From an uncultured Pelagibacteraceae bacterium (GTDB lineage Bacteria > Pseudomonadota > Alphaproteobacteria > Pelagibacterales > Pelagibacteraceae): a stretch of 46,544 nt of DNA. The translations under genes and the position numbers were made by a program. This document shows, piece by piece, positions 36,382-40,468 of the stretch. Location: assembly GCA_902599575.1 (NCBI GenBank), contig CACKFS010000001.1, positions 1 through 46,544 of the forward strand. Reading direction: 5' to 3'. The notes under the pieces are model-generated. The model did not search any database. It saw nothing but the letters and a program-made list of their open reading frames with translations, and had not been told where the DNA came from. Position 1 is the first letter of the stretch; each line of letters begins with the position of its first letter.

Positions 36382-36921
36382 TTATTTAGCCTTTTTAGTG
36401 CTATCTTCTTTAAGACTCTCATCTTTTTTTAAAGACGGAGATTTATCATCCTCAGGAGTTTCTACTTTATCATCTTTTGTTGTCTGTTTAACAACATTTT
36501 CCTCTGTTACTCCCTCAGGTTTTGTCTCTATATCAATACCGATTTTCTTTTTAATTTTTTCAGCAATTTTTGCTGATTTCCCTGTTCTGTCTCTTAAGTA
36601 GTATAGTTTAGCTCTTCTTACTTTTCCAGATCTTATGACTTTAATAGTATCAACAATTGGACTAAAGAGTGCAAATGTTCTTTCAACTCCTTCGCCAAAT
36701 GATATTTTTCTTACTGTAAATGAAGAGTTAATGTCTCTATTTTTTTTTGCTATACAAACGCCCTCAAAATATTGAATTCTTTCTCTCTTTCCTTCTGTAA
36801 TTCTAACACCAACTTTAATAATATCTCCAGGAAAGAAATCTGGTAATTTTTTTTCTGCTGAGATTTTCTTTACGTTCTCTCTATTTATTTCTTCAATATT
36901 TTTCATTTGTATGTTTATCAA
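36382..36921 (-). CDS. rplS: 50S ribosomal protein L19 with extended charged C-terminus
   Basis: [59 protein letters not shown]; about 50-residue low-complexity tail. Confidence 0.97.
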
Positions 36922-36922
36922 T

Positions 36923-37609
36923 TTAATTCTTTTTATATTTTTGCCACAAGTCTGGTCTTCGGTGGCGTGTTATAGCCTCTGATTGAGATAAACGCCAGTC
37001 TTTAATTTTGCTATGATCTCCTGATAAAAGCACCTCAGGAACTGGTGTTTTTTCCCATATTTGTGGTTTTGTATACTGAGGATACTCCAATAAACCATTT
37101 TCAAAACTTTCGTCTTTATACGAATTTTCATTTCCTAGAACACCCGGCACAAGTCTTAATATGCTATCCAAAATTACGTATGCAGCTGTCTCGCCACCTG
37201 ATAAAATGTAGTCCCCAATACTGATCTCTTCAATACCTCTGGACTCTATGACTCTTTGGTCAATTCCTTCAAAATGACCACAAAGAATATTTATTTTTTT
37301 TTCGTTCAAAAATTTTTTTGCTTTATTTTGATCAAAAGTCTTTCCTTTAGGTGTTAAATAAATAATTTTTTCATTTTTTTTTAAATTTTGATCTAGTGCT
37401 TTTGCAACTACATCAGGTTTTAAAACCATTCCTTCACCACCTCCGTAAGGAGTATCATCTACTGTTTTATGCTTATCCTTTGCGTAGTCTCTAATATTGA
37501 TTACATCCAAGTTCCACAAACTTTTCTCAATTGCTCTTCCATATATACTTTTGCTTAGAATTCCTGGAAAAAAGTCTGGATATAAAGTGAATATTTTTAC
37601 TTGAAACAT
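36923..37609 (-). CDS. trmD: tRNA (guanine-N1-)-methyltransferase
   Basis: [59 protein letters not shown]. Confidence 0.98.
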
Positions 37610-38124
37610 TATTTTTTATTTTCCTCTGCCTTTGGAGATTCTTTTGGAGCATCAGCTTTTTTCTCTTCTGCCTTCGGAGCTTCTTTTGGAACATCAGCTT
37701 TTTTCTCTTCTGCCTTTGGAGCTTCTTTTGGAGCATCAGCTTTTTTCTCTTCTGCCTTTGGAGCTTCTTTTGGAGCATCATTTTTTTTATCCTCTTTTTT
37801 TTCAGCACCAGCATCTTGTTTTTTTCTATCTTTTTTTGGAATAGCCTTGTTGGGATTATTACCAGCTGCAGGCATTTCAATTAATTTATTCTCCCCTAAA
37901 ATTCTTGCAACTCTAGTAGTTGGTTTTGCTCCTTGACTTAACCAATATTTAATTCTTTCAGATTCAAGACCTACTCTATCTTTTTTATCTTTTGGTAACA
38001 GTGGATTGAAATATCCTAGTTTTTCTATAAATCTTCCATCTCTTGGAAATCTGCTGTCTGCTACAACTATCTTATATACTGGTCTTTTTTTTGTACCGCC
38101 CATTGATAATCTAAGTTTTAACAT
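37609..38124 (-). CDS. rpsP: 30S ribosomal protein S16 with repetitive C-terminal extension
   Basis: [42 protein letters not shown], then a Lys/Glu/Ala/Pro repeat tail. Confidence 0.97.
37615..37782 (-). repeat. 42-nt (14-aa) tandem repeat encoding ([14 protein letters not shown])n in the rpsP tail
   Basis: About four near-identical 42-nt units on the + strand: ttttttctcttctgcctttggagcttcttttggagcatcagc, at about 37615-37656, 37657-37698, 37699-37740 and 37741-37782. Confidence 0.92.
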
Positions 38125-38137
38125 TTTTTCTCCTTTA

Positions 38138-39496
38138 TTATTTTAATTGATTGAAGAGTTCTGGTGGCAATCCTTTATCCATTAACCCTTTTGTGTTTCC
38201 TTTTGACATTTTTTTCATCATGTCAGACATCATTTTAAATTGTTTTAACAATTTATTGATAGTGGCAATATCTGTACCAGAGCCATTAGCAATTCTTTTT
38301 TTTCTAGATCCATTTATTATTTTAGGATTATCTCTTTCTTGTTTTGTCATTGACAATATTACTGCCTCATTTTGGGTTATAATTTTTTCATCAACGCCTG
38401 CTTGATCCATTTGTGATTTTAATTTTGAGACACCTGGTAAAAAAGACATTACTCCCTCTATACCACCCATTTTTTTCATTTGTCTTAATTGTGTTAAATA
38501 ATCATCTAGTGAAAATTGTCCTTTTTTTAAAGTTTCTTCAGCTTCTTTTAATTTTTCTTCGTCGATGTCTTGTGCTGCTTTCTCAACTAGAGAAACGATA
38601 TCTCCCATGCCTAAAATTCTATTTGCAATCCTGTCAGGGTGAAAAATTTCTAGATTTTCAATTTTTTCTCCTATTCCTAAAAATTTGATTGGCACATTAG
38701 CAACATGTTTCATACTAAGTGCTGCACCACCTCTTCCATCTCCATCAGCACGTGTTAAAATTATTCCTGTAAGTTTTACTGTATTTCCAAATTCCTTTGC
38801 AACATTAGCAGCTACTTGGCCAGTAAGTGAATCAGCAACCAGTATTGTTTCAGTTGGTTTTATGACTTCCTCTATTTGTTTTATTTCACTCATCATCTGT
38901 AAATCGATTTGTGTTCTTCCAGCGGTATCAAAAATAATAACATCTGAGCCATTAAGGTTTGCAGCCGTTAAGGCTCTTCTGCAAATATCCGTGGGTGTTT
39001 GACCTTCTATTATTGGCAGTGTTTGAATATTATTTTGCTCGCCAAGAACTTTTAATTGGTCTTGAGCAGCAGGACGATAGATATCTAAACTTGCCATCAT
39101 GATCTTTTTTTTGTTATTTTTTTCTAAAAATTTAGATAATTTTGCGGTACTAGTTGTCTTACCAGATCCTTGGAGGCCTACCATCATAATTGAAATTGGT
39201 GGATTAGATTTTAAATTAATTTCTTGATTTTTATCACCTAAGAAATTTACAAGCTCGTCATAAACAATTTTTACAACCATCTGCCCAGGAGCTGTTGATC
39301 TTAGAATTTCTTTCCCTAAAACTTTTGGTTTAACATTATTGATAAATTCTTTTGTGACGTCTAAAGAAACATCTGCTTCTAATAGAGCTTGTCTTATTAA
39401 TCTTAAACCATCATCAACCTGACCTTCATCAAGTGATGGTGATTTTTTAAATCTTTCGAGTATACCCTCGAATTTATTTGTTAAATTTTCAAACAT
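38138..39496 (-). CDS. ffh: Signal recognition particle GTPase Ffh
   Basis: [18 protein letters not shown]1 [38 protein letters not shown]; Met-rich M domain. Confidence 0.98.
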
Positions 39497-39497
39497 A

Positions 39498-39515
39498 TTA
39501 TAATCCAGCAGTCAT
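39498..39515 (-). CDS. Candidate upstream mini-ORF (MTAGL*) in the ffh leader
   Basis: Minus strand ATG ACT GCT GGA TTA TAA, with one nucleotide between its stop and the ffh ATG; no strong Shine-Dalgarno. Confidence 0.3.
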   Translation of the reverse strand: MTAGL

Positions 39516-39517
39516 CG

Positions 39518-39595
39518 CACCAGTGGGCGAACCCTCGCTGACTGGTGTCGATCTCTTTGTTTCCAAAGACACCGCAAAATGCTGTTTTTTTGCGG
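39518..39595 (-). ncRNA. Candidate structured cis-regulatory RNA in the ffh 5' leader (three hairpins)
   Basis: Minus-strand RNA: CCGCAAAA-aaacagca-TTTTGCGG (39595-39572); GGTGT-CTTTG-GAAA-CAAAG-agatcg-ACACC (39573-39544); CACCAGT-cagcga-GGG-TTCG-CCC-ACTGGTG (39547-39518). Locally GC-richer than its surroundings. Confidence 0.6.
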
Positions 39596-39615
39596 AAGTG
39601 GTGAGAAACTATAAT
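39587..39615 (+). promoter_or_regulatory. Possible promoter for dapF-ftsY; the -10 is near-palindromic and may also serve the ffh strand
   Basis: Perfect TATAAT (39610-39615), weak -35 TTTTTG (39587-39592) with 17-nt spacer; CTATAATAG reads CTATTATAG on the minus strand. Confidence 0.4.
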
Positions 39616-39655
39616 AGAGGTTCAAAAAGTCAATAAATAAGTTAAGTATAAATAT

Positions 39656-40468
39656 ATGGATTTTAAAGCATATAAAATGGATGGTTTAGGAAATGACTTT
39701 GTTATTATCGATCAAAGAGATAGTGACTTTGAATTAAATAAGTCTCAAATAAAAAGTATTTGTGACAGAAAAAAAATTGGTTGCGATCAACTAATTTTAG
39801 TTAAAAAAAGTGAAAAAGTTGATGCTTATTTAATTTTTAAAAATTCTGATGGATCCGACTCAGCAGCTTGTGGTAACGGTACGAGATGTGTAGCAAGCCT
39901 TTTGTCAAAAGAAAATGCTAAAAGTGAAATCACATTTGAAACAGAGAGCGGTATTCTAAAATCTAAAATCTTAAATGAGAATAATATCCAAACTAATATT
40001 GGAATTCCTAAAACAAATTGGAATGAAATACCTTTAGCAAAAGAAGTAGATACAAAGAATGTTGAAATTAAAATAGATAATCTTAACCTTTCAGGGACAG
40101 CAGTGAATGTTGGAAATCCGCATATAATTTTTTTTACTGAAGATTTAGATAAAATTCAAATAAAAGATATAGGGCCTAAAATTGAAAGTAATTCTTTGTT
40201 TCCAGAAAAAGTAAACGTGACATTTGCAAAAAAAATTAATGATAAACATTTTAAGGTTTTACATTGGGAAAGAGGAGCAGGCTTGACTAAAGCTTGTGGT
40301 ACTGCTGCGTGTGCTACAGCAATTGCGGGTGAAATAAATAAAGTTTCAATTTATCCTACTGAAATTGAATTTAAATTAGGAAAGATCAAAATAAATAAGG
40401 ACGTTAATGGAAATATCCTTATGGAAGGAAATGTATCTAATATAGAAAAAATTAATTTAAACCTATGA
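39656..40468 (+). CDS. dapF: Diaminopimelate epimerase
   Basis: YKMDGLGNDFVIID, NSDGSDSAACGNGTRCVA, WERGAGLTKACGTAACATA. Confidence 0.98.
   Translation: MDFKAYKMDGLGNDFVIIDQRDSDFELNKSQIKSICDRKKIGCDQLILVKKSEKVDAYLIFKNSDGSDSAACGNGTRCVASLLSKENAKSEITFETESGILKSKILNENNIQTNIGIPKTNWNEIPLAKEVDTKNVEIKIDNLNLSGTAVNVGNPHIIFFTEDLDKIQIKDIGPKIESNSLFPEKVNVTFAKKINDKHFKVLHWERGAGLTKACGTAACATAIAGEINKVSIYPTEIEFKLGKIKINKDVNGNILMEGNVSNIEKINLNL

Follow-up and report, generated by a model that had tools for sequence, protein, structure and literature searches.

The stretch of DNA analysed here (hereafter the window), 46,544 nucleotides of a contig from an uncultured member of the Pelagibacteraceae (CACKFS010000001.1), contains a 159-nt gap between the divergent genes ffh (minus strand, 38138..39496; an ORF with a match to the Ffh family in its own genome at E = 1e-169) and dapF (plus strand, 39656..40468), and this gap raises the question of which RNA it encodes and which gene that RNA serves. 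A sequence-only reading had given the gap the same length, in agreement with the ORF coordinates, and had placed in it a structured RNA of the ffh leader while conceding that an equivalent motif might already be catalogued. This is indeed the case: the leader is the SAR11 copy of the Rfam family RF01793, the "ffh motif," and is thus already known. The match (minus strand, 39509..39562; 54 bits, gathering threshold 35, E = 1.3e-7) covers the full length of the model (1-52), stops 12 nt short of the ATG of ffh, the first gene past the leader, and is the sole gathering-level Rfam match in the whole window; an Rfam match to a known RNA was an outcome that the same reading had listed against its own proposal. 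Its suggestion of a ligand-responsive leader found no backing, as no evidence for a small molecule came to light and no Rfam riboswitch family matched anywhere in the window.

The ffh motif goes back to Meyer et al. (2009), who described it as one bulged hairpin upstream of ffh, originally in the ffh/dapF gap of Pelagibacter ubique HTCC1062, also 159 bp long; its RNA was detected in metatranscriptomes and no function was assigned (PMC2704228). Our literature search found no paper on the function of this RNA. The window copy shares with the published motif a covarying bulged hairpin (hairpin c below) with a conserved CA/CC internal loop (CC of the bulge at 39525-39526), the GAUCG 5' of that hairpin, a gap of equal length, and a position directly upstream of ffh, which also holds in nearly all relatives. 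It differs in that the Rfam model comprises one hairpin and leaves the 3' half of a second hairpin (b), with its GAUCG, unpaired. Neither b nor a further hairpin (a) is part of the existing description, nor are the wider distribution and the copies preceding rpsP in SRP-less lineages reported below, so that the revised structure and the link to rpsP are new beyond the Rfam record. With the 4.5S SRP RNA the leader shares only its functional neighborhood, ffh: no RF00169 match was found at the site, in line with the earlier judgment that this was not an obvious 4.5S RNA, and the 4.5S RNA gene of this genome lies on another contig (44-bit RF00169 match).

Folding of the minus-strand gap returned three consecutive hairpins about where the sequence-only reading had put them (minimum free energy -36.4 kcal/mol, z -4.05, with 1 of 200 shuffles equally stable). 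The plus strand of the gap folds as well (z -5.4), and folding energy alone therefore cannot assign the strand. Hairpin b contains a conserved G.U pair, read as GU on the minus strand in 41 of 42 SAR11 leaders, which would become an A.C mismatch on the plus strand; the RNA is therefore assigned to the minus strand, as had been argued from the sequence, and an RNA on the dapF strand was rejected. The conserved core (minus strand, 39504..39574; our revised model, R2) consists of hairpin b, a 1-nt linker, hairpin c, and a 3' tail, and R2 scores 75 bits on the window (E = 1.9e-16), the window being among the 81 rows from which R2 was built. Hairpin b (39549..39574) reads CGGU(G)UCUUUG-GAAA-CAAAGA(G)AUCG, with one G.G mismatch, and hairpin c (39518..39547), the hairpin of the Rfam model, reads CACCAGU-CA-GCGA-GGGU-UCGC-CC-ACUGGUG. 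The tail 3' of c (39505..39517) has the consensus C.NU......UUKGG at fixed spacing. Hairpin a (39572..39595), CCGCAAAA/UUUUGCGG, lies outside the Rfam model, and its last 3 nt, CGG at 39572..39574, are common to its own 3' strand and the 5' strand of b.

A probable promoter, composed of TTGACT (39628-39633) and TAGTTT (39606-39611), occupies 39606..39633 on the minus strand in columns conserved across 63 SAR11 leaders, and would put the transcript start at about 39599, ahead of the three hairpins. The leader RNA would be about 100 nt long, and in SAR11 the conserved RNA ends about 10 nt ahead of the first start codon.

Comparative evidence for this structure came from 42 distinct SAR11 leaders aligned by sequence alone, with no structure imposed. 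Without any structural constraint, RNAalifold predicted two hairpins from this alignment, b and c. Hairpin b was 99.0% paired with changes on both sides in 7 of its 10 pairs, hairpin c was 100% paired, and jointly 99.5% of cells were paired. The two hairpins held 64 double-change cells versus 15 in shuffles, a count reached by 0 of 500 shuffles, and sliding their partners by 1 to 3 columns lowered pairing from 99.5% to between 35 and 46%. The covariation check proposed with the sequence-only reading thus gave strong compensatory change in homologous leaders. Hairpin a, which that reading had drawn exactly (CCGCAAAA/TTTTGCGG), was 98% paired with 12 double-change cells. Its version of hairpin b held at the tip (CUUUG-GAAA-CAAAG), which covaries, and failed in the lower stem, which is CGGU/AUCG and not GGUGU/ACACC. 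In hairpin c the outer stem, CACCAGU/ACUGGUG, stood, whereas the proposed inner GGG-UUCG-CCC stem gives way to GCGA/UCGC: the GGG strand varies while CCC is invariant, and UUCG is therefore not the loop of c. The GAAA loop is present at the tip of b in the window but is not conserved, with GUAA, UAAG, UUAG, and others among SAR11 leaders.

Several further pairings were discarded. An alternative fold built on a GGTG shared between b and c (GGUGUC/GACACC) showed no covariation and did no better than shuffles; an AUCG/CGAU extension of c, found in the minimum free energy structure of the window, has a 3' side that is not conserved; and an extra base pair within the internal loop of c, though above shuffles, is a standard pair in just 37% of members. 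The overlap of stems a and b, in contrast, was borne out by three-way covariation at the common position. Among the 42 SAR11 leaders the triplet of a, shared, and b nucleotides is G/C/G in 30, A/U/A in 11, and G/U/U in one, and the A/U/A state occurs in other genera and once within the genus of the window, in a leader (L063) with coordinates equal to those of the HTCC1062 gap, which makes two or more events likely. Such a pattern is compatible with selection on both pairings. Across the class, an overlapping hairpin a of at least 7 bp is found in 26% of members versus 3% of shuffled controls; it is lineage-dependent and absent from the marine order f40 (see below), and was rejected as a class-wide feature. 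In an alignment of that order (A2), RNAalifold paired columns 52-55, in the 5' strand of b, with columns 109-112, the UUGG of the tail; some co-changes accompany this possible second alternative fold.

The RNA extends well beyond SAR11. Within the family, 169 of 197 genomes carry RF01793; across the class, 86 of 387 have a match above cut-off. Many of the sampled genomes are metagenome or single-cell assemblies. When a covariance model of b and c built from SAR11 was applied to 20 class genomes picked for having no Rfam match, most gave matches of varying strength upstream of ffh, about ten of them clear (E < 0.01) and the rest weaker. In 81 members aligned with the b and c model, an alignment that leans towards the structure, b was about 93% and c 99.8% paired, and this model-guided alignment held double changes in 20 of the 21 pairs of b and c (10 of 11 in c alone). 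The conserved RNA therefore exceeds the single hairpin of Rfam, with the second hairpin, b, one nucleotide upstream of c. The tail also recurs at fixed spacing, ending in UUKGG, and is U-rich even in GC-rich genomes, where it holds 5.9 U in 12 positions versus 2.1 in controls; most T runs are 2 to 3 long, with runs of 5 to 6 in 19 of the 81 members and none in the window copy. Some genomes with an ffh-rpsP arrangement show no detectable RNA.

What the members have in common downstream is not ffh. The RNA heads an operon of the form (ffh)-rpsP-(rimM)-trmD-rplS, and rpsP, encoding ribosomal protein S16, lies downstream in all 57 loci inspected, from more than 40 families, with distal genes out of view on short contigs and behind long insertions. 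In the window, ffh is followed on the minus strand by rpsP (37609..38124), which we propose as the key target, and by trmD and rplS (36382..37609). In most other alphaproteobacteria rimM stands within the operon; it is absent from it in SAR11 and in f144, and in the window it is missing between rpsP and trmD (36923-38124). One genome (G207, locus L227) carries the RNA (47.5 bits) before ffh and rpsP followed by unrelated genes; a DUF502-like membrane protein stands there in place of rimM-trmD-rplS. Conversely, another genome (G451), in which rpsP does not come after ffh, has no detectable RNA. Members of the family f19 (L172, L223, L226) have an insertion of 2.1 to 2.6 kb between ffh and rpsP, and here too the RNA precedes ffh. 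In the window, the 3' part of rpsP (37625-37795) is a 42-bp tandem repeat of 4.1 copies (93% match) that gives S16 a tail of repeated Lys/Ala/Glu/Pro, and long low-complexity tails also occur on other S16 proteins of the class, including those of f40 and G207.

Lineages without SRP show which gene the RNA accompanies. In f40, an order of marine alphaproteobacteria represented by 18 genomes (L104, L109, L127, L150-L163, L165; one record is named MED-G09, for which our literature search found no paper), ffh is absent and the RNA lies between dapF and rpsP. Neither Ffh nor 4.5S RNA was found in any of the 18, nor was any SRP54-type GTPase including FtsY apart from one sub-cut-off match of 41 residues, and the controls of these searches were positive. 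Six of these genomes are more than 90% complete, with a size of about 1.4 Mb when near complete; dapF and mtaB are retained, and ftsY does not follow mtaB. This order is an apparent case of full SRP loss outside tiny endosymbiont genomes. The RNA is kept in all 14 f40 genomes that have rpsP, 27 to 33 nt before it, and the four genomes without the RNA also lack rpsP, which indicates that the region is unassembled there. Hairpin c is 100% paired in f40 with 9 double-change cells, and is 88% identical versus 62 to 72% in its flanks.

A second family, f58 (L284-L287), comprises genomes of 0.9 Mb that are 99 to 100% complete and gave no Ffh above cut-off among the at most four candidates scored per genome. 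All four carry the RNA before rpsP, with scores of 33.5, 31.7, 23.0, and 12.3 bits; the lowest score is weak by itself but falls at the same place as the others. Six pairs of the RNA show compensated double changes in this family. A tree of S16, TrmD, and L19 places f40 with SAR11 and f58 with f26, and since both SAR11 and f26 bear SRP, this suggests that f40 and f58 lost SRP separately, although attraction between AT-rich sequences is possible in this tree. In four other groups with rpsP and no above-cut-off Ffh match among at most four candidates scored per genome (f44, L267; f111, L273 and L278; f61-g74, L263, L264, and L266; G569, L281), no RNA was found near rpsP; these count neither way, as their ancestors may or may not have had the RNA. 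Two further candidate SRP-less genomes (G482 and G277) were rejected, as both also lack rpsP, probably because their assemblies do not include the region.

Leaders of ribosomal-protein operons act in autoregulation, and the RNA described here resembles them in its conserved structure and in its place at the start of an operon with ribosomal-protein genes. It differs in that S16 is only a putative ligand and that no rpsP-trmD leader is established, the regulation of this operon being described as unknown in a 2024 review (PMC10931766). RNAs before rpsB and rpsL were described alongside the ffh motif (PMC2704228). We propose rpsP as the target because no other gene was found downstream of all copies: ffh is eliminated by f40, which keeps the motif before rpsP without Ffh, FtsY, or 4.5S RNA, and likewise by f58; rimM by the SAR11 and f144 operons, which lack it; and trmD and rplS by their absence after motif-ffh-rpsP in G207, on the local gene order of one genome. 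We therefore give an even chance to RF01793 being a cis-acting leader of about 100 nt of the ffh-rpsP-trmD-rplS operon that is tied to rpsP, with S16, by this elimination of the other operon genes, as its likely ligand. Free S16 in excess over 16S rRNA would bind the stacked b and c hairpins of its own leader and, whatever the level of control, lower expression of the operon, with ffh a passenger wherever it is still present. Simple masking of a ribosome-binding site does not fit every member, as the RNA lies from about 10 to 284 nt ahead of the first start codon. The leader comprises a lineage-dependent hairpin a, hairpins b and c with their 1-nt linker, and the U-rich tail at fixed spacing. 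In SAR11 the exchange of three nucleotides between the feet of a and b may be the moving part of a switch.

Among the other readings, the one that survives best, though we regard it as rather unlikely, is a cis-acting leader whose partner is L19, TrmD, or an RNA-binding protein or nuclease of general action instead of S16, or one that acts only by stabilizing the mRNA or setting the translation rate. In its favor, the RNA heads a multi-gene operon in which trmD and rplS are nearly always present, its distance to the first gene differs widely among members, and the fixed-spacing U-rich tail could serve in processing or in protein binding. The gene order of G207, a single genome, argues against L19 and TrmD, as against RimM. 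A separate small RNA acting in trans, cut from the operon mRNA or terminated before it, seems improbable. Rfam does type RF01793 as an sRNA, short transcripts from the ffh/dapF gap have been reported in metatranscriptomes (PMC2704228), an RNA of about 120 nt was predicted in S. meliloti as sm5 (PMC2573895), an "ffH leader RNA" is among the expressed sRNAs of Bartonella (PMC7717549), and c is followed by the U-rich tail with its occasional longer T runs. The RNA is, however, strictly conserved in its place in front of one operon, the window copy lacks a U run, and in SAR11 the roughly 10 nt between the end of the RNA and the start codon leave little room for a terminator. Slightly less probable again is the autoregulatory leader responsive to Ffh or SRP that was raised in 2009 and again by the sequence-only reading. 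In its favor are the place of the RNA directly before ffh in nearly all genomes and known cases of leaders to which their own RNA-binding gene products bind. It would have to treat the rpsP-preceding copies as relics when these keep compensatory changes in f40 and Ffh-less f58, lineages split by SRP-bearing ones in the operon-protein tree; moreover, the motif does not resemble the Ffh-binding domain (PMC2704228), and SRP RNA is encoded elsewhere in the genome. Since the leader persists before rpsP without SRP, sensing of Ffh or SRP cannot be its general role.

Returning to S16, the RNA entered the catalogue in 2009 with no assigned function, which it still lacks, and under a name that points to Ffh; the SRP-less lineages, as a natural deletion experiment, redirect the search from Ffh to rpsP. 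We tentatively advance, at somewhat less than even confidence, the fuller proposal that the "ffh motif" is misnamed and may be an alphaproteobacterial S16 autoregulatory leader built on tandem hairpins b and c, with, in SAR11 and some other lineages, an overlapping hairpin a that exchanges pairs with b. Such a leader would have survived at least two losses of SRP and, if the proposal is true, no control of the rpsP-trmD operon was known before it. A marine order without detectable SRP, in turn, bears on the universality of cotranslational targeting.
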